A stretch of 5,676 bases of DNA, from contig WJOQ01000193.1 of NCBI GenBank assembly GCA_009618505.1, forward strand, positions 1 through 5,676. Reading direction: 5' to 3'. The notes beneath the pieces are model-generated. The model did no database searches, was not told the origin of the DNA, and worked only from the letters and a program-made list of their open reading frames with translations. The stretch is from Clostridia bacterium. GTDB lineage: Bacteria > Aerophobota > Aerophobia > Aerophobales > AE-B3A. This document shows, piece by piece, positions 1 to 5,676 of this stretch. Position numbers and translations under genes: made by a program. Every line of letters starts with the position of its first letter. Position 1 is the first letter of the stretch.

Positions 1-117
1 ACCACGCCAGGTCCCATTGATCTTGAAACTGACTTTTTCAAAGGCGGGTTTACGTATCCGTCCTACGAGGGAGGTGACGAGCATTCTGTAACTGAGGACC
101 GGGGAGGGAAACCGTGA
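1..117 (+). CDS. 3' end of an unidentified protein (partial)
   Basis: An open frame enters from the left edge and ends at TGA 115-117, giving 38 residues rich in Gly, Asp and Glu. I recognise no family in it. Support that it is a real gene end comes from its junction: the stop overlaps a GTG start (GTGA, 114-117), and a strong Shine-Dalgarno-like GGGGAGGG (101-108) lies inside its last codons, five bases before that GTG. This is the usual look of translationally coupled bacterial genes. The complementary strand is also open across here, from a stop near 235 to the left edge, but it shows no recognisable motif and no clear ribosome binding site, so I prefer the + strand. The identity needs the upstream sequence. 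Confidence 0.4.
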   Translation, partial: TTPGPIDLETDFFKGGFTYPSYEGGDEHSVTEDRGGKP

Positions 118-146
118 GAAAAGTGTATATGAGAATCTTTGGCTGA
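114..146 (+). pseudogene. 5' remnant of a MiaB-like methylthiotransferase gene
   Basis: Eleven codons starting at GTG 114 read (V/M)RKVYMRIFG and then TGA (144-146). Bacterial MiaB proteins typically begin with a short K-V-Y-x-x-T-(Y/F)-G-C-Q-M-N strand that carries the first cluster cysteine. Here the match runs up to the Gly, and a stop sits exactly where Cys is expected, one base away from a Cys codon. A strong SD (101-108) with five-base spacing and a GTGA overlap with the upstream gene make this a credible former start. The same motif occurs in the intact miaB downstream (KVYIRTYGCQMN, residues 15-26), but the two DNA segments agree at only about 16 of 26 positions, so this is not a fresh duplication. 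The match covers only ten residues and could be chance. Confidence 0.4.
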
Positions 147-285
147 CCTTATGTTTCGTCCGCTCCCGATGCTTCGCATCGGGAAAAGCCGAATCTTTCG
201 CCACCCACCCAGCAGTCACAGTCGGTCGGCTTCAGCCAGCTTCGCTGTCTTCCGCAGCGCCCTTTGTGGGCCTGCTTGCCCCATT
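147..285. other. GC-rich, hairpin-rich noncoding segment
   Basis: This stretch is clearly richer in G and C than the AT-rich promoter to its right and the genes around it. It contains a perfect 9-bp hairpin (164-184) and weaker stems at 243-259 (CGCTG/CAGCG) and 268-281 (GGGC/GCCC). Several frames are open on both strands, which is expected from GC-rich DNA with few stop codons. None carries a recognisable motif; for example, a 54-codon frame from ATG 151 has Ser/Arg/Pro-rich composition typical of noncoding DNA. It may be a dispersed intergenic repeat or the edge of the inserted segment, but copy number cannot be seen from one window. With the partial gene on its left, this explains the gene-poor 1-359 region. 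Confidence 0.4.
164..184. repeat. Perfect inverted repeat, 9-bp stem with 3-base loop
   Basis: TCCCGATGC (164-172) is complementary to GCATCGGGA (176-184) around the loop TTC. The stem is GC-rich and would fold stably in RNA or single-stranded DNA. No T-run follows on either strand, so it is not a canonical intrinsic terminator. It lies 18 bases after the stop of the miaB-like remnant. Confidence 0.7.
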
Positions 286-295
286 AAAAAAATCA

Positions 296-324
296 TTGAC
301 ATAATCGTATAAATTATATATACT
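296..324 (+). promoter_or_regulatory. Sigma-70-type promoter of the AbiEi operon
   Basis: A consensus -35 box TTGACA (296-301) and a near-consensus -10 box TATACT (319-324) are separated by exactly 17 bases. The expected transcription start is near 331, leaving a leader of roughly 30 bases before the ATG at 360. The ribosome binding site is GGGGG at 351-355. This is the only strong promoter I see in the window. It should be a powerful promoter unless repressed, which fits an autorepressed toxin-antitoxin operon. Confidence 0.8.
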
Positions 325-351
325 TGTTGAGAAGTAGTAAGAAATTATACG
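306..351. promoter_or_regulatory. Candidate AbiEi operator (spaced inverted repeat)
   Basis: CGTATAAATT (306-315) and AAATTATACG (342-351) form an inverted repeat with 9 of 10 positions matching; the outer seven (CGTATAA/TTATACG) are perfect. The arms are 26 bases apart. The left arm lies between the -35 and -10 boxes, and the right arm ends at the first G of the ribosome binding site, so a protein bound to both would cover the -10 box and start site. Studied AbiEi proteins repress their own operon by binding inverted repeats in the promoter, and this geometry suits that. The AT-rich context raises the chance of accidental symmetry. Confidence 0.45.
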
Positions 352-359
352 GGGGTTAA

Positions 360-962
360 ATGCAAATACGAACACAGGAGCTCATGAGTTTTTTTCAGAG
401 TCACGGCGGAGTAGCTCGATTTTCTGCTATTCTGAAGGCTGGATTTCATCCTGATTCGCTCAGTGCTCTGGAAAAAGAAGGAAGGGTTGAAAAGATTGCC
501 CGGGGTCTTTATCGTGTGACTAACTATACTCCTGGTTCTCATCCCGATCTTGTTATTGCGTCACTTCAGGCACCTCGAGGCGTTATCTGTCTTCTTTCCG
601 CTCTTTCTTTTCATGAAGCAACAAGCGAGATTCCCAGGTATGTGGATCTAGCCATTCCACAAAGTACACATGCCAATAGAATTAAGTATCCTCCGGTAAG
701 ATTTTACCGCTTTGCTCCTAAAACGTGGAAAGCAGGAATTGAAAAGCATGAAATTGAAGGACACAGAATCAAGGTCTATAGCCTCGCTAAAACGATTGCC
801 GATTGCCTTAAATTCAGGAACAAGATAGGTATAGACCCTGCACGGGATGCCCTCAAAGTTGCTGTTACTGAAAAAGGTATAAAACTAGAAGATATCGTGC
901 AGTATGCTAAGATTTGTCGTGTTGATAGCATTGTAAAACCTATATTGGAAGCTCTGATATGA
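360..962 (+). CDS. abiEi: AbiEi-family type IV antitoxin / transcriptional repressor
   Basis: This 200-residue protein matches the short AbiEi form. Residues about 5-53 form an N-terminal winged helix-turn-helix ending in the typical GRVEKIARGLYRV strand (41-53). The rest is the AbiEi antitoxin region, with PRGVICLLSALSFHEATSE (72-90), the aliphatic YVDLAIP strand (94-100), and the C-terminal VYSLAKTIADCLKFRNKIG (139-157). In studied AbiE systems this protein represses its own promoter through the N-terminal domain and neutralises the AbiEii nucleotidyltransferase toxin through the C-terminal part. The ATG at 360 is supported by GGGGG four bases upstream and by the promoter at 296-324. The stop overlaps the next start as ATGA (959-962), the usual abiEi-abiEii junction, but the toxin that follows is only a 30-codon stub. 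The antitoxin itself appears complete, without frameshifts or internal stops. Family assignment is confident; antitoxin activity here is inferred. Confidence 0.85.
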   Translation: MQIRTQELMSFFQSHGGVARFSAILKAGFHPDSLSALEKEGRVEKIARGLYRVTNYTPGSHPDLVIASLQAPRGVICLLSALSFHEATSEIPRYVDLAIPQSTHANRIKYPPVRFYRFAPKTWKAGIEKHEIEGHRIKVYSLAKTIADCLKFRNKIGIDPARDALKVAVTEKGIKLEDIVQYAKICRVDSIVKPILEALI

Positions 963-1051
963 AAAAGGATATTAAGAATATAGAAGCCTCTGTTCGTGGT
1001 CGACTTCAAAATGAAGCGAGAGCAACCAATTATAAGGAACAGGGGGAATGA
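959..1051 (+). pseudogene. Truncated AbiEii toxin N-terminus (30 codons)
   Basis: ATG 959 overlaps the abiEi stop (ATGA). The frame gives 30 residues beginning MKKDIKNIEASVRGRLQNEA and ends at TGA 1049-1051. AbiEii/nucleotidyltransferase toxins commonly begin with this K-N-I-x-A-S-V-(R/H)-x-R-L-x-N-x-A helix, so about the first 25 residues fit the family. Everything that should follow is absent, including the nucleotide-binding core: a full AbiEii is several hundred residues long. No further AbiEii sequence is visible in any frame before or inside the next gene. The last codons double as the ribosome-binding region of the next gene, and the stop overlaps its start (ATGA 1048-1051). It cannot be a functional toxin. 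It may survive as a coupling leader between the flanking genes, or as a recent scar. The family call rests on a short match and gene position. Confidence 0.62.
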
Positions 1052-2049
1052 TGTCAAAAAGAGGAAAGAATCTAAAAGAAATCCCCACGGCAAAGGTTGT
1101 TCTGTATAGGAATAAATTTGAGGTCAGGCTGGAGAAGGAGACAGTGTGGTTGAGTCTTAATCAGATGGCTGGTCTGTTTAAACGGGATAAATCTGTCATC
1201 TCTCGTCATTTACACAACATATTCAAAACTAAAGAGTTAGACCGCGGTTCAACTGTTGCATTTTTTGCAACAGTTCAGGATGAGGGGGGCCGTTTGGTTG
1301 AACGGAGAATCGAATATTTTAACCTTGATGCTATTATTTCAGTTGGTTACCGGATTAATTCTAAGCGGGGAACGCAGTTTCGTATCTGGGCCACGAATGT
1401 ATTAAAGAAACATTTAGTTGACGGATATACGGTCAATGAGAAACGTCTTAAGGTTGCAGAGCATAAGTATCGGCAATTACAGAAATCAATAAAGCTTTTA
1501 GGAAATGTGATTCGTCTTGAGGTTGTTTCTGATGAAACAAAAGGCCTTATCCAGGTGATAACCGGGTATAGCAAAGCACTTGATATATTGGATGATTATG
1601 ATCACCAACGACTTTCTGTTCCTAAGGGGACGACGAAAAAAGCCAAATTTGAACTTACCTATGAAAAGACCCGCAGGATTATTGATACTATGAGAAAAAG
1701 ATTCAAGGATTCCCCGCTTGTCGGTCAAGAAAAAGATAACAGTCTTAAGGCCTCTATTGGCGCAATTTATCAGACATCTAAAGGCGAAGATGTCTATCCA
1801 ACGGTTGAAGAAAAAGCGGCTCATCTGTTGTATTTTGTGACCAAGAACCATAGTTTTGTAGATGGCAATAAGCGGATTGCCGCGGCTCTTTTTATCTGTT
1901 TTTTGCAGAGAAACGGCATCCTTTTGCGTAATGATGGTACGCCTCGTATGGATGAAAATGCCCTTGTGGCATTAACTCTTATGATTGCAGTCAGCAAGCC
2001 TCAGGATAAAGATATTATGATTAAGGTCATTCTAAATCTGCTGATGTAA
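1048..2049 (+). CDS. RhuM-family protein with C-terminal Fic/Doc domain
   Basis: This 333-residue two-domain protein has an N-terminal RhuM (virulence-associated) domain at about 15-130. It carries the hallmark blocks VWLSLNQMAGLF (33-44), IEYFNLDAIISVGYRI (88-103) and GTQFRIWATNVLKKH (108-122). A helical linker (about 130-165) leads to a C-terminal Fic/Doc fold with a flap segment GEDVYPTVEEKAAHL (246-260) and active-site motif HSFVDGNKR (268-276). Catalytic H268 is present. The motif has DGNKR and lacks the second arginine of canonical AMPylating Fic (GNGRxxR). It is closer to Doc, which phosphorylates EF-Tu, so phosphotransfer is more likely than AMP transfer; this is inference. I see no clear [S/T]xxxE[G/N] inhibitory motif; TSKGED (243-248) is close but lies in the flap. 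ATG codons at 1048 and 1051 are both possible; AAGGA (1034-1038) and GGGG (1042-1046) precede them. It sits in the operon slot where AbiEii is expected and may act as a toxin. Confidence 0.9.
   Translation: MMSKRGKNLKEIPTAKVVLYRNKFEVRLEKETVWLSLNQMAGLFKRDKSVISRHLHNIFKTKELDRGSTVAFFATVQDEGGRLVERRIEYFNLDAIISVGYRINSKRGTQFRIWATNVLKKHLVDGYTVNEKRLKVAEHKYRQLQKSIKLLGNVIRLEVVSDETKGLIQVITGYSKALDILDDYDHQRLSVPKGTTKKAKFELTYEKTRRIIDTMRKRFKDSPLVGQEKDNSLKASIGAIYQTSKGEDVYPTVEEKAAHLLYFVTKNHSFVDGNKRIAAALFICFLQRNGILLRNDGTPRMDENALVALTLMIAVSKPQDKDIMIKVILNLLM
1251..1275. repeat. Perfect 10-bp inverted repeat inside the RhuM-Fic gene
   Basis: AACTGTTGCA (1251-1260) and TGCAACAGTT (1266-1275) are exact reverse complements around a TTTTT loop. 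In the mRNA this would form a stable hairpin about 200 bases into the gene. It encodes the mirrored peptide TVAFFATV (residues 69-76). Related RhuM proteins have similar residues here, so the symmetry may come from coding constraint. Confidence 0.7.
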
Positions 2050-2140
2050 CTGCGGTAGCGGGGAAAATTTTCAAAAGGATTTCTTTTTCTCTTTTCGCTC
2101 CCTTTAATTTTTTGTTTTCAGGAACAGAAAGAAAATCACA
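2050..2140. other. Intergenic spacer between RhuM-Fic gene and miaB
   Basis: This 91-base spacer contains a pyrimidine-rich tract (2081-2118). A GAAAATTTTC palindrome (2063-2072) and a weak AAAAG/CTTTT hairpin (2073-2087) precede some T residues. The stems are short and mostly A-T, so I do not call a terminator. I also find no convincing -35/-10 pair for miaB. AGGAACAG (2120-2127) repeats the eight bases found at 1035-1042, just before the RhuM-Fic gene. Confidence 0.5.
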
Positions 2141-3520
2141 ATGTCAGAAGAATCAAAGGTTTACAAAAATTCGCCGCAAAAAGTCTACATCCGTACTTAC
2201 GGATGTCAGATGAATGAGTATGATTCCGAGATTATGGCTGGTTTGTTAGAGAATAGCAGCTATCGTCTAACAGATAATCCCGAGGAAGCTGGGGTAATTC
2301 TCCTTAATACCTGCTATGTGCGGGAGAAAGTTAAGCACAGGATTTACAGCAGACTGGGAGAATTAAAGAAGCTTAAGGAAGAAAAGCCTGAGCTTATTCT
2401 GGGTTTATCCGGATGTTTAGTGCAGAAAGAGCCAGAGGAGGTTCTACAGCGAGCACCCTATCTAGATTTTATTTTAGGTACTTCTAGCTTTTACCGGTTG
2501 CCGGAGGTCTTAGGGCAATTCTTCGGTGACGGAGTTCGAGGTACTAAGGCGAAAGGTAGCTCCCGCTCTATGATAGTTCAGGTCGAGGAAGATAGAGCAA
2601 TTCCTGAAGGCATGCCTAAATTAAGAAAGAGAAAATTTAGCGCTTTTGTTTCCGTTATGAGAGGCTGTAATAACTTCTGTTCTTACTGTAATGTCCCTTA
2701 TGTAAGAGGTCGAGAGGTGAGCAGATCGCGTAAGGATATCCTGAGAGAAGTTGAAGAGCTAGCTCTAAAAGGGTATAAAGAGGTAATCCTTCTGGGGCAG
2801 AATGTGAATTCCTATGGTAAAGGGGAAAAGGAAAAAATAGACTTTGCTGACCTTTTGGTTCTTGTTAATCAGATAGAGAAATTAAGGAGAATAAGATTTA
2901 CTACTTCTCACCCCAAGGACCTGAGTGATAAGTTGCTGGAGAAAATGGCAGAATTGGATAAGGTCTGTGAGCATCTTCATCTGCCGGTTCAATCAGGCTC
3001 TAATAAGATTTTGTCTAGAATGAAGAGAGGTTATACGCGAGAGCATTACAAGAATTTGGTGAACAAACTCCGTCAGGCAATTCCGGAGACAGCTCTTACT
3101 ACTGATATTATTGTGGGATTTCCGGGAGAGGAGGAAAAAGATTTCCAGGACACTCTGGAGTTAGTAGAAACAGTTGGCTTTGACGGTGCTTTTACTTTCT
3201 GTTATTCTCCTCTTAAGGGGACCGAAGCAGCCCAGTTAGAGGAGAGGATTCCGGAGAAAACTAGTGGCCAAAGACTAAGAAGGTTAATCGAGCTTCAACA
3301 GAAAATCCTTCTTAGGAAGAATGAGTCCTTGGTCGGAAAAGAAGTCGAAATTATGGTAGAAGAAATCTCAAAAAAGAGTTCTGATGAGCTTCAAGGAAGA
3401 ACACGTACTAACAAGATGGTGGTATTTAAGGGTAGAAAGGAGCTTATCGGTAATATTATATCAGTGAAAATAGTGGCTTCTGGATGTTGGGCCTTAAGAG
3501 GGAAGGTTAGCTCTTGTTAG
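2141..3520 (+). CDS. miaB: tRNA-2-methylthio-N6-dimethylallyladenosine synthase MiaB
   Basis: This cytosolic radical-SAM methylthiotransferase converts i6A37 to ms2i6A37 on tRNAs that read UNN codons. Its 459 residues show the full architecture. The N-terminal methylthiotransferase domain (about 15-125) supplies cluster ligands C22 (YGCQMN), C58 (LNTCYV) and C92 (SGCLVQ). The radical-SAM domain (about 165-385) has the CxxxCxxC motif C176-C180-C183 in RGCNNFCSYCNVPYVRGRE. A C-terminal TRAM domain (about 397-457) includes GRTRTNKMVVF. RTYGCQMN, TSHPKD (255-260) and the TRAM sequence favour MiaB over RimO or MtaB. All key cysteines are present. ATG 2141 is the only reasonable start, since the frame has a stop at 2105 and no closer initiation codon before the first motif. 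Its ribosome binding site is poor (AGGA is 17 bases away), and 14 residues precede KVYIRTYG. It starts the miaB-miaA-tyrS cluster and overlaps miaA by 7 bases. Confidence 0.97.
   Translation: MSEESKVYKNSPQKVYIRTYGCQMNEYDSEIMAGLLENSSYRLTDNPEEAGVILLNTCYVREKVKHRIYSRLGELKKLKEEKPELILGLSGCLVQKEPEEVLQRAPYLDFILGTSSFYRLPEVLGQFFGDGVRGTKAKGSSRSMIVQVEEDRAIPEGMPKLRKRKFSAFVSVMRGCNNFCSYCNVPYVRGREVSRSRKDILREVEELALKGYKEVILLGQNVNSYGKGEKEKIDFADLLVLVNQIEKLRRIRFTTSHPKDLSDKLLEKMAELDKVCEHLHLPVQSGSNKILSRMKRGYTREHYKNLVNKLRQAIPETALTTDIIVGFPGEEEKDFQDTLELVETVGFDGAFTFCYSPLKGTEAAQLEERIPEKTSGQRLRRLIELQQKILLRKNESLVGKEVEIMVEEISKKSSDELQGRTRTNKMVVFKGRKELIGNIISVKIVASGCWALRGKVSSC
3498..3506 (+). promoter_or_regulatory. Ribosome binding site of miaA, inside the end of miaB
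   Basis: GAGGGAAGG lies seven bases before TTG 3514. It decides the miaA start: the frame has a stop at 3508-3510 just upstream, and the nearby ATG at 3521 is in another frame. TTG 3514 is thus the earliest possible start and has ideal spacing. Confidence 0.75.
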
Positions 3521-4479
3521 ATGCCCTCTTGGTTATTTTGGGACCAACCGGTGTGGGGAAGACGGAAGTAGCCATAGAATTAGCAAAAAGAATTAGAGTA
3601 GAGATAATATCTGCTGATTCTCGCCAGATTTACAAGGAGATGGATATAGGCACTGCCAAGCCTTCTTCTGCTGTTCGCCAGAAAGTCCCGCACCATCTTA
3701 TTGACCTTGTTTTTCCTGATGAGATTTTTGATGTAGCTGGTTTTAAGGCACGGGCAGAAGCTATTATAAAAGAATTACAAAAGAAAGACAAATTACCTAT
3801 TTTGGCAGGAGGCAGCGGTCTTTATATAAAGGCTGTAATGGATGGACTTTTCATAGGGCCAGGAGCAGATTGGAAGTTGCGGGAGAAGTTAAAAAAAAAG
3901 GAGAAAAGAGAAGGCAGGGGAACTCTCCATCAGGAACTTGAGCGAGTTGACCCAACTACTGCTTCTCGCCTTCATCCGCATGACCAAAGAAGGATTATCA
4001 GGGCACTGGAGGTTTACCATCTTTCTGGCAAGCCAATCTCCTCTTATCAAACACAATTTCCTTCTACCTTGACAAATGCAGTAATGATTGGCTTGGAGAG
4101 AGAAAGAGAATCTCTTTTCCGTTTAATTAATGAGCGAGTGGATAGAATGGTAGCAGGAGGATTGATTGAGGAAGTAGAGTCTCTTTTGAACAAAGGGTAC
4201 TCAGAAGATTTGCCTTCTTTACAGGGATTAGGATATCAGCAGATTATAGCCTATCTAAAGGGAGAGTATCCAGAAGAAGAAGCAATCAGGTTAGTAAAGA
4301 GAGATACGAGAAGATTTGCCAAACGTCAGATGAGTTGGTTTAAGCGGGATAAACGAATATTATGGATAGATACAGGAGAGTTTTCTTCTTTCACTCAGAT
4401 TTCAGACAAAATAATGGATATTCTAATCAAGAAAATACCACAGATACAATTCACCAGTCATGGAGAAATGCGGAAATAG
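3514..4479 (+). CDS. miaA: tRNA dimethylallyltransferase MiaA
   Basis: MiaA transfers the dimethylallyl group from DMAPP to N6 of A37, making the i6A that MiaB then methylthiolates. The 321-residue length is normal. Motifs in order are the P-loop GPTGVGKT (10-17), DSRQIYKEMDIGTAKP (35-50), VPHHLID (58-64), AGGSGLYIKA (98-107), RLHPHDQRRIIRALEV (152-167), LQGLGYQQI (236-244) and the basic tRNA-binding end RDTRRFAKRQMSWFKRD (263-279). Translation starts at TTG 3514, seven bases inside miaB and after a strong SD, so the two enzymes of one pathway are probably translationally coupled. A run of nine A residues (3891-3899) encodes a Lys stretch (127-129) and ends in the heptamer A AAA AAG in frame. 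It is a possible slippage site but leaves the frame intact as written. The last dozen residues beyond the family core are not conserved in any way I recognise. Confidence 0.97.
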   Translation: MLDALLVILGPTGVGKTEVAIELAKRIRVEIISADSRQIYKEMDIGTAKPSSAVRQKVPHHLIDLVFPDEIFDVAGFKARAEAIIKELQKKDKLPILAGGSGLYIKAVMDGLFIGPGADWKLREKLKKKEKREGRGTLHQELERVDPTTASRLHPHDQRRIIRALEVYHLSGKPISSYQTQFPSTLTNAVMIGLERERESLFRLINERVDRMVAGGLIEEVESLLNKGYSEDLPSLQGLGYQQIIAYLKGEYPEEEAIRLVKRDTRRFAKRQMSWFKRDKRILWIDTGEFSSFTQISDKIMDILIKKIPQIQFTSHGEMRK

Positions 4480-4491
4480 AGGAGTAAAGAG

Positions 4492-5676
4492 ATGGAATCA
4501 AAAAAACAGATTCAATTAATCAAGAAGAATACAGTAGAAATCATTCAGGAAAGTGAGCTTCTAAGAAGAATAACAAGCAAGGGGTCACTTCGCATAAAGC
4601 TTGGAGTGGACCCTACTACTTCCGATATTCACCTGGGACATAGTATAGTTCTTTTTAAGCTAAGATGTTTCCAGGATTTAGGACATAAAGTCATTCTCTT
4701 AATTGGTGACTTTACCGCCAGGGTTGGGGATCCCAGCGGTAGAAGTAAAACGAGGAAACCCTTGTCTATCAAGGAGATAGCTGCCAATGCCAGAACTTAT
4801 CGAGAACAGGCCTTTAAGATATTAGCTCCAAAAAAAACAGAAGTGCTCTTTAACTCTGAATGGCTTAGCAAGATGAATTTTTCTGATGTCTTGAAACTTG
4901 CTTCTCGTTATACCGTGGCAAGAATGCTGGAAAGAGACGATTTTAGTTTGCGCTATCAAAAAAAATATCCTATTGGTCTTCACGAATTTATGTATCCTTT
5001 GATGCAGGCTTATGATTCGGTAGCCATGCATGCCGATGTAGAGTTAGGCGGGACAGACCAGAAATTCAATCTTCTTTTAGGAAGACAAATACAGAAGGCT
5101 TATGGACAGCCATCACAAATTGTCATTACCATGCCACTTCTGGAGGGTATAGATGGTTCTAAGAAGATGAGCAAAAGTCTGGGGAACTATATTGGGGTGA
5201 CAGAACCGCCTTATGAGATGTACGGAAAAGTTATGTCAATACCCGATGAGTTAATATTTAAGTATTTTCGATTGCTGACCTCTCTAAAAGAAGAAGAAGT
5301 AGACTCCAGAGAAAAGGAGTCTAAGGAGGGGAGGCTGCACCCCGGCAAAGCAAAAGAGGAATTAGCCGAGAGGATAGTCAGTTTTTACCATGGTAAATCT
5401 AACGCAGAAGCGGCAAAAGAGAGATTTAAAGCCATTTTCAAGAGAAAAGAGACACCAACCGACATTCCCTCCTATTCTTTGGCCTCAGATGAAATGAAGG
5501 AAGGTAAGATATGGATAGTGAGGATTCTCCAGCTTACCGGTTTGGCGAATAGCGGTTCAGAGGCACGCCGTCTAATTAAGCAGGGGGGAGTGAAATGGGA
5601 TGAAAAAATAGTGAAAGATATTGGCTGGGAAGTTTCTCCAGGCGAGAGTCACGTTTTGCAAGCAGGCAAAAGAAAA
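4492..5676 (+). CDS. tyrS: Tyrosyl-tRNA synthetase (TyrZ type), 3' end cut by window
   Basis: This class I aminoacyl-tRNA synthetase attaches tyrosine to tRNA-Tyr. The frame runs from ATG 4492 through 395 codons to the window edge without a stop. The SD GAGGAG (4479-4484) is seven bases upstream, and the gap to miaA is 12 bases, indicating one operon. Residues show the HIGH-type signature HLGH (47-50) in GVDPTTSDIHLGH, the tyrosine pocket region YPLMQAYDSVAMHADVELGG (168-187) followed by TDQKFN (188-193), the KMSKS loop DGSKKMSKSLGN (221-232), and a C-terminal S4 RNA-binding domain (about 345-393, with GSEARRLIKQGGV). HLGH and a true KMSKS, instead of KFGKS, place it in the TyrZ-like subgroup. 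The S4 domain is almost finished (ending AGKRK), so probably fewer than about ten residues are missing. No T-box or other leader regulation is visible, which fits an internal operon position. Confidence 0.97.
   Translation, partial: MESKKQIQLIKKNTVEIIQESELLRRITSKGSLRIKLGVDPTTSDIHLGHSIVLFKLRCFQDLGHKVILLIGDFTARVGDPSGRSKTRKPLSIKEIAANARTYREQAFKILAPKKTEVLFNSEWLSKMNFSDVLKLASRYTVARMLERDDFSLRYQKKYPIGLHEFMYPLMQAYDSVAMHADVELGGTDQKFNLLLGRQIQKAYGQPSQIVITMPLLEGIDGSKKMSKSLGNYIGVTEPPYEMYGKVMSIPDELIFKYFRLLTSLKEEEVDSREKESKEGRLHPGKAKEELAERIVSFYHGKSNAEAAKERFKAIFKRKETPTDIPSYSLASDEMKEGKIWIVRILQLTGLANSGSEARRLIKQGGVKWDEKIVKDIGWEVSPGESHVLQAGKRK

Follow-up and report, generated by a model that had tools for sequence, protein, structure and literature searches.

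The window, the whole stretch of 5,676 nucleotides that was analysed, comes from an uncultured bacterium resembling Aerophobetes and carries on its forward strand genes for AbiEi, an AbiEii stub and RhuM-Fic, followed by miaB, miaA and tyrS. The AbiEi gene (360..962) encodes a complete repressor/antitoxin of the AbiEi family with 200 residues, in which both the N-terminal AbiEi domain and the C-terminal part are present. The PADLOC AbiEi model matches residues 5-199 (E 7.6e-66), Pfam AbiEi_4 scores above its cut-off and residues 6-197 match the solved AbiEi structure 6y8q (E 1e-9), in agreement with the original prediction that this protein is intact. The frame that follows (959..1051, + strand) has 30 codons, MKKDIKNIEASVRGRLQNEARATNYKEQGE, and is made up of some 24-25 N-terminal residues of AbiEii, a few unrelated codons and a stop, as judged from HMM, alignment and frame reading. 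Over residues 1-24 it shares 71% identity with the N-terminus of the full 304-residue AbiEii in L066 (E 1.6e-4), and the match of an AbiEii HMM, derived from 39 copies, is confined to positions 1-25, which bears out the earlier claim that AbiEii is reduced to about 25 residues. Pfam alone finds no family in the 30-residue stub. An adjacent AbiEii nucleotidyltransferase with its catalytic motifs is absent, and no remainder of AbiEii was found 3' of RhuM-Fic in the window or in a second copy of the operon described below (L001), the best chance match having an E-value of 0.28.

The third gene (1048..2049, + strand) encodes a RhuM-Fic protein of the PDC-S23 type with 333 residues. The frames overlap by an ATGA at both junctions, at 959-962 between AbiEi and the stub and at 1048-1051 between the stub and RhuM-Fic, so that the start of RhuM-Fic coincides with the ATGA that closes the stub; both overlaps are identical in L001. 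The operon of AbiEi, AbiEii stub and RhuM-Fic that had been proposed is thus confirmed by PADLOC, Pfam, the AbiEii HMM and the ATGA overlaps, and its proposed span of 360-2049 is exact. A complete miaB (2141..3520, + strand) starts 91 bp past RhuM-Fic and is followed by miaA (3514-4479) and by tyrS, which runs from 4492 to the end of the window. An Rfam scan of the window gave a single sub-threshold chance match.

In RhuM-Fic an N-terminal RhuM region is fused to a C-terminal Fic/Doc domain across the full length of the protein. Pfam finds PF13310 and PF02661, and PADLOC PDC-S23 matches residues 22-332 (E 1.4e-130). The catalytic motif HSFVDGNKR (1849..1875, + strand) was located by an alignment of 73 relatives, 72 of which carry the Doc-type form HxFx(D/N)(A/G)NKR, while none of the 73 has HxFx(D/E)GNGR. 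The best fold match in the PDB for the predicted structure is P1 Doc (3k33; E 6e-4, TM 0.65 by target length), which is also the sole match below 0.001. Confidence in the model is moderate, with a mean pLDDT of 70; means over ten residues are 76-91 over the Fic part and fall below 60 over residues 111-180. The top PDB sequence match of the RhuM-Fic profile is likewise a death-on-curing protein, and the NCBI Doc model scores 36.5 bits, just under its cut-off of 38.65. A sub-threshold Pfam helix-turn-helix lies in the RhuM part at residues 35-56. By motif and by the match of the predicted structure to P1 Doc, the Fic part of the protein is Doc-type. According to a review (PMC4177925), Doc owes its kinase activity to a lysine at position 8 of the motif, and EF-Tu is the protein that P1 Doc phosphorylates; for RhuM-Fic itself, kinase activity, target and toxicity are what we infer. 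A scan of viral contigs found no relatives of RhuM-Fic or of AbiEi.

Upstream of AbiEi is a sigma-70-type promoter, TTGACA-17-TATACT (296..324, + strand), which agrees with the consensus at 11 of 12 positions and accounts for the strong promoter of the original prediction. An inverted repeat lies over its -10 region (306..351, with arms at 306-325 and 332-351 that are 75% complementary) and is a candidate AbiEi operator. Compared by eye, the same block of promoter and inverted repeat also precedes AbiEi in L001, L172, L175, L177, L173 and L176, and among these relatives it is kept irrespective of the state of AbiEii, be it complete, reduced to a stub or all but lost. In the eighth row compared, L174, whose AbiEi stands at 57%, the block cannot be recognised. 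Of the seven rows in an automatic alignment, six show the block; the remaining one, L176, covers too short a stretch. In Streptococcus agalactiae AbiEi represses its own operon by binding inverted repeats, and its frame overlaps abiEii by 4 nt (PMC3985639); by analogy, AbiEi would repress the operon here. On the - strand an exact consensus sigma-70 box, TTGACA-17-TATAAT (1029..1057), lies across the junction of the stub with RhuM-Fic and is identical in L001.

The arrangement of AbiEi, stub and RhuM-Fic occurs at one of the 52 RhuM-Fic loci in the genome collection, that of Ca. Aerophobetes bacterium Ae_b3a (L001). The proteins of the two copies are 92.5% (AbiEi), 93% (stub) and 96% (RhuM-Fic) identical, and alignment delimits a common cassette, 153..2082 in the window and 2097-4025 in L001, that is 95.4% identical. 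In L001 it is likewise upstream of miaB-miaA-tyrS. Since both flanks differ between the window and L001, the cassette travels or persists as a unit. In L001 it sits in a stack of defence genes, with an NTase and HEPN pair before it and a weakly HEPN-like gene after it.

Comparison of the two copies gives dN/dS values of 0.20 for AbiEi and 0.22 for RhuM-Fic, alongside 0.23 for MiaB, 0.29 for MiaA and 0.17 for TyrS; the stub has too few changes for an estimate. Non-synonymous changes per site are fewer than synonymous ones in both AbiEi (Fisher p 1.7e-6) and RhuM-Fic (p 4.9e-5). Values near 0.2 show that both genes have been maintained despite the loss of AbiEii, though with the pair in just two genomes this conservation spans a short time, and the low value for AbiEi might stem from a role in protecting the cell from other AbiEii toxins and not from control of RhuM-Fic. 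The dS of AbiEi (0.18) exceeds that of RhuM-Fic (0.08; p 0.02), and the two genes may have separate histories, with recombination a possible cause.

The cassette is preceded by a remnant of miaB. Read from the sequence, positions 115..147 (+ strand) carry what is left of the 5' end of a miaB-like gene (VRKVYMRIFGC), which breaks off at the Cys codon, the point at which the cassette starts; by eye, 16 of 26 bases match the start of the window's own miaB. The evidence is stronger in L001, where a copy of the miaB 5' end (1675-1780) is 76% identical to window positions 2100-2205 (E 5e-14). It is cut at GGATG/ACCTTAT, and the left flank of the window ends at GGCTG/ACCTTAT after VRKVYMRIFG, so that in both the cassette starts at the same codon, that of the conserved Cys of MiaB, and in both a complete miaB follows it. 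The 5' end of miaB is an apparent insertion site. Seven Aerophobetota loci (L190-L194, L196 and L197) have a PHP-type gene, named by eye, directly before miaB, which indicates that genes are inserted there, and in two genomes of another phylum AbiEi-AbiEii or AbiEi alone stands directly before miaB (L175, L176). A pattern search that recovers the remnants of the window and L001 found none ahead of miaB in the Aerophobetota loci L188-L198, 11 in all, or in the three AbiEi loci L175-L177. Genomic islands are known to enter the 5' end of dusA and to supply it with new 5' sequence (PMC4482086). The cassette resembles them in that it, too, would have entered a tRNA-modification gene at its 5' end and supplied new 5' sequence, but here the gene is miaB and there is no integrase in the 2-kb cassette.

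The pairing was sought more widely. Searches with AbiEi and RhuM-Fic over the same sets found it in a single genome among 17 Aerophobetota. Among the matches listed for 285 genomes in the phylum of L004 (Omnitrophota), 120 in that of L018 (WOR-3) and 345 in that of L002 (Desulfuromonadales), the two genes were nowhere direct neighbours; for the first and third of these sets one list each covers the stronger matches. The nearest misses were a RhuM-Fic separated from the AbiEi upstream of it by 2.1 kb, which contain a full AbiEii and one further gene (G362), weak AbiEi-like matches 2.7 and 6.6 kb from RhuM-Fic (G400 and G308), and the two genes 8 kb apart (G529). When a RhuM-Fic HMM was run over 93 loci that the AbiEi searches had yielded, a full RhuM-Fic was found in the flanks of the Ae_b3a locus only; the locus from G362 (L100) gave two weak fragments (E 2e-4 and 6e-4). 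Conversely, 49 genomes, representing 49 of the 51 remaining RhuM-Fic loci, included four with any AbiEi match, none of which has RhuM-Fic in the fetched flanks. Less than 1 kb of upstream sequence is available at four of the 52 RhuM-Fic loci, and an AbiEi could be hidden there. AbiEi has relatives at 93-98%, the genomic context seen being that of the Ae_b3a copy. As far as was searched, the pairing is limited to one lineage, and the recurrence that the original prediction proposed to look for was not found beyond it. An AbiEi match at 94% (P0013) and a RhuM-Fic match at 77% (P0135) come from records of equal length, 5711, which hints at another pair; the coincidence was spotted before it was put to a test, which used 44 and 42 of the 120 + 120 listed lengths and put the probability that any length over 5 kb is shared by chance at about 0.9%.

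Elsewhere RhuM-Fic keeps other company. Upstream neighbours were read at 22 of the 52 loci, and they include DUF1016, type I restriction and unrelated genes. At L010 a complete DUF1016 nuclease gene ends at RhuM-Fic, and by eye there is a DUF1016 remnant upstream at L002, an HsdM-like gene at L003 and HsdS-like genes within 1.5 kb upstream, not always adjoining, at L015, L027 and L028. A Methylophaga plasmid has RhuM-Fic inside a type I restriction operon, and in P0127 an N-terminal piece of DUF1016 runs directly into RhuM-Fic, which makes it the second instance in which RhuM-Fic lies behind a truncated defence gene. No annotated AbiEi lies beside RhuM-Fic in seven plasmid neighbourhoods, where many neighbours are hypothetical.

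To what extent AbiEi occurs without a full AbiEii was surveyed at 72 AbiEi loci among the matches listed (the best 30 per search), the window and L001 included. Loci entered the survey if AbiEi reached residue 185 at E <= 1e-10, and some derive from one genome. One stops at a contig end and 71 were scored: among these listed matches 39 have a full AbiEii, 5 have one that is broken but present and 27 lack a full AbiEii (25 of 69 when the window and L001 are left out). The 27 comprise 13 with an N-terminal part, 12 with none by HMM and 2 with a C-terminal piece only. In the 13 the HMM match ends at position 25 to 179; one of them, L071, retains a C-terminal piece as well, and L062 is close to the end of its locus. 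Six of the 12 HMM-negative loci have, by eye, an AbiEii-like start of 4-12 residues. In the Omnitrophota set (L089/L172) an AbiEii-like frame of 9 codons overlaps the start of a gene for a 490-residue DUF4062-ATPase, and at L067, where AbiEi has an internal stop, the AbiEii-like frame runs into miaB. At most other AbiEii-less loci inspected no coupled replacement gene was seen, and it is common for a stub to be followed by unrelated DNA (as in L091, L101, L080 and L137). The counts place the window within a broader pattern of AbiEi without AbiEii, in which replacements are few; since AbiEi is often without a full AbiEii, AbiE systems called from AbiEi alone will often be misleading. Orphan antitoxins in general have been reported (TASmania, PMC6504116), and in Mycoplasma orphan copies of an AbiEi-like antitoxin go with ongoing TA remodelling (PMC8562856); the available portions of these two reports do not describe AbiEi paired with RhuM-Fic.

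We lean towards the view, as the somewhat more probable account, that AbiEii was replaced by RhuM-Fic while AbiEi stayed on as repressor of the operon; RhuM-Fic would be self-contained, whether as a Doc-like toxin or as a defence protein. An AbiE type IV operon would have lost AbiEii past codon 24-25, and its position would have been filled by a RhuM-Fic gene whose start lies in the final ATGA of the stub. In favour are the observed order and overlaps of the genes, the promoter and inverted repeat found in relatives too, the constraint on AbiEi and RhuM-Fic, the common cassette in two genomes, the frequent absence of a full AbiEii beside AbiEi and the position of RhuM-Fic behind other defence genes elsewhere. 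AbiEi would bind the inverted repeat and repress the operon, and ribosomes finishing AbiEi and the stub would re-start on RhuM-Fic, so that its output would track transcription controlled by AbiEi. The Doc-type domain would presumably phosphorylate a translation factor such as EF-Tu and would be restrained by its own RhuM part, by low expression or by a trigger, not by the antitoxin domain of AbiEi. Of the original prediction, the replacement of the toxin in its slot, with AbiEi kept together with promoter and inverted repeat, holds in two genomes, whereas its alternative of AbiEi as neutraliser of RhuM-Fic is not supported, given that most RhuM-Fic genes have no AbiEi and that AbiEi has often survived the loss of AbiEii with no RhuM-Fic next to it. 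The exact antisense promoter box at the junction counts against partner replacement, as do the small number of coupled replacement genes at other AbiEii-less loci, the difference in dS between the two genes, the short time that their conservation covers and the moderate confidence of the structural model.

The main rival is that an AbiE operon decayed at a spot upstream of miaB where defence genes accumulate, and that RhuM-Fic came to lie behind it with no working link, AbiEi being a relic or an immunity gene. The stacking of defence genes around the L001 copy, the frequency of stubs followed by unrelated DNA and the fact that RhuM-Fic elsewhere needs no AbiEi all speak for such a history. It explains less readily the exact ATGA overlap of stub and RhuM-Fic, the shared promoter and inverted repeat, the constraint on both AbiEi and RhuM-Fic and the sharing of the cassette as a unit in two different flanks, and we regard it as possible but doubtful.

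A rewired toxin-antitoxin pair, in which the C-terminal domain of AbiEi neutralises RhuM-Fic, appears improbable. AbiEi is intact with its C-terminal domain and constrained, and the operon is tight; the studied AbiEi of S. agalactiae neutralises AbiEii without binding it (PMC3985639), so an effect on the target side of another toxin is conceivable. Set against this, RhuM-Fic is mostly found without AbiEi and AbiEi persists without any recognised toxin. Nor is any mechanism of AbiEi known to us that would suit a kinase of the Doc type. The motif (S/T)xxxE(G/N) is a Fic-inhibitor motif, and its lack of conservation in AbiEi, where it reaches a maximum of 13/120 at one position, is a further point against a rewired pair. 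In RhuM-Fic residue 75, within the RhuM part, is the one place where it recurs (32/73), and the inhibitor idea was rejected there too. The window may be a metagenome record, but that metagenome assembly created a false junction is hardly credible, as the separate Ae_b3a record has the same arrangement at 96% (RhuM-Fic) and 92.5% (AbiEi) protein identity.

The operon shares features with known systems and departs from each. Like the AbiE type IV system (Dy et al. 2014, PMC3985639) it has an AbiEi with an N-terminal DNA-binding and a C-terminal domain, an inverted repeat at the promoter and a 4-nt overlap with the next frame, whereas the AbiEii nucleotidyltransferase is gone save for about 25 residues and RhuM-Fic stands in its stead. 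With Phd-Doc (P1 Doc, a kinase of EF-Tu; PMC4177925, PMC13034048) it shares a Fic-fold domain and the motif HxFx(D/N)(A/G)NKR, but its Doc domain carries an N-terminal RhuM fusion and the gene ahead of it encodes AbiEi; no Phd family is among the Pfam matches of AbiEi, RhuM-Fic or the stub. RhuM-Fic matches the PADLOC candidate PDC-S23 (RhuM/Fic/DOC family protein) over residues 22-332; PDC-S labels denote single-gene candidates, and here the gene lies within an AbiEi operon. Orphan antitoxins, some of them AbiEi-like, and reshuffled TA pairs are already known (PMC6504116, PMC8562856). No report of AbiEi paired with RhuM-Fic was found in the literature searched, which was mostly that outside subscription journals, in line with the remark in the original prediction that it knew of no such pairing.

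A wider reading, which we hold tentatively and think unlikely, is that AbiEi, its promoter and the first AbiEii codons form a reusable front end for unrelated genes, with the 5' end of miaB as an entry site of such cassettes. A repressor and a coupled translation start would be supplied to RhuM-Doc here, to the DUF4062-ATPase in one genome of the Omnitrophota set and to miaB in another phylum. If this were true, AbiEi-type repressors would govern toxins that they never neutralised, and cassettes would place the tRNA-modification gene miaB downstream of themselves.

With AbiEii replaced by RhuM-Fic, the window would capture a toxin replacement in a type IV TA operon with the first codons of the old toxin still in place. 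It suggests that repression and antitoxicity of AbiEi may separate in evolution, and the genes behind AbiEi may be a place in which new defence genes can be found.

AbiEii appears to have been replaced at another locus as well, L172 (G223:C60), where an AbiEi relative (78%) is followed by an AbiEii-like frame of 9 codons that overlaps a gene for a DUF4062 + HATPase_c_4 protein of 490 aa. The second AbiEi of Ca. Aerophobetes bacterium Ae_b3a (L054/L182; G001:C104) stands without AbiEii, and a gene for a Fic protein (PF02661) with an SxxxEG motif, as read by eye, starts around 280 bp downstream of it. Two loci of further AbiEi relatives contain repeats. In L173 a direct repeat of 106 nt (89%; 2536–2641 and 3528–3633, the copies 992 nt apart) lies on both sides of an AbiEi with an AbiEii start of 11 residues. 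In L174 a segment with AbiEi and an AbiEii start of 11 residues is bounded by a 53-nt repeat (2162–2214 and 5297–5349), one copy of which falls within a tRNA-Met gene (5303–5379).

Among the RhuM-Fic relatives, P0121, P0122 and P0151 have near-identical N-termini while the middle part, about residues 65–200, is swapped. As P0151 joins the front of one RhuM-Fic type to the rear of the other, the sequences suggest that the gene has recombined internally. An exact TTGACA-17-TATAAT box spans the stub/RhuM-Fic junction of the window in the antisense direction (1057–1029, minus strand), and the identical antisense box is carried by L001, the Ae_b3a locus with the second copy of the cassette.

The 5′ end of miaB is found to the left and right of the cassette (window 115–147 and 2141–2205; L001 1675–1780), and in both loci the left copy is broken off at the Cys codon of KVYxRxYGC. 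No integrase was found within the cassette. In L001 the defence genes form a stack upstream of miaB, where an NTase + HEPN gene pair (638–1670) precedes the AbiEi-RhuM-Fic cassette and the cassette is followed by a gene (4234–5058) that matches HEPN_RiboL-PSP below the cut-off. The miaB 5′ end is apparently an insertion site for defence cassettes.
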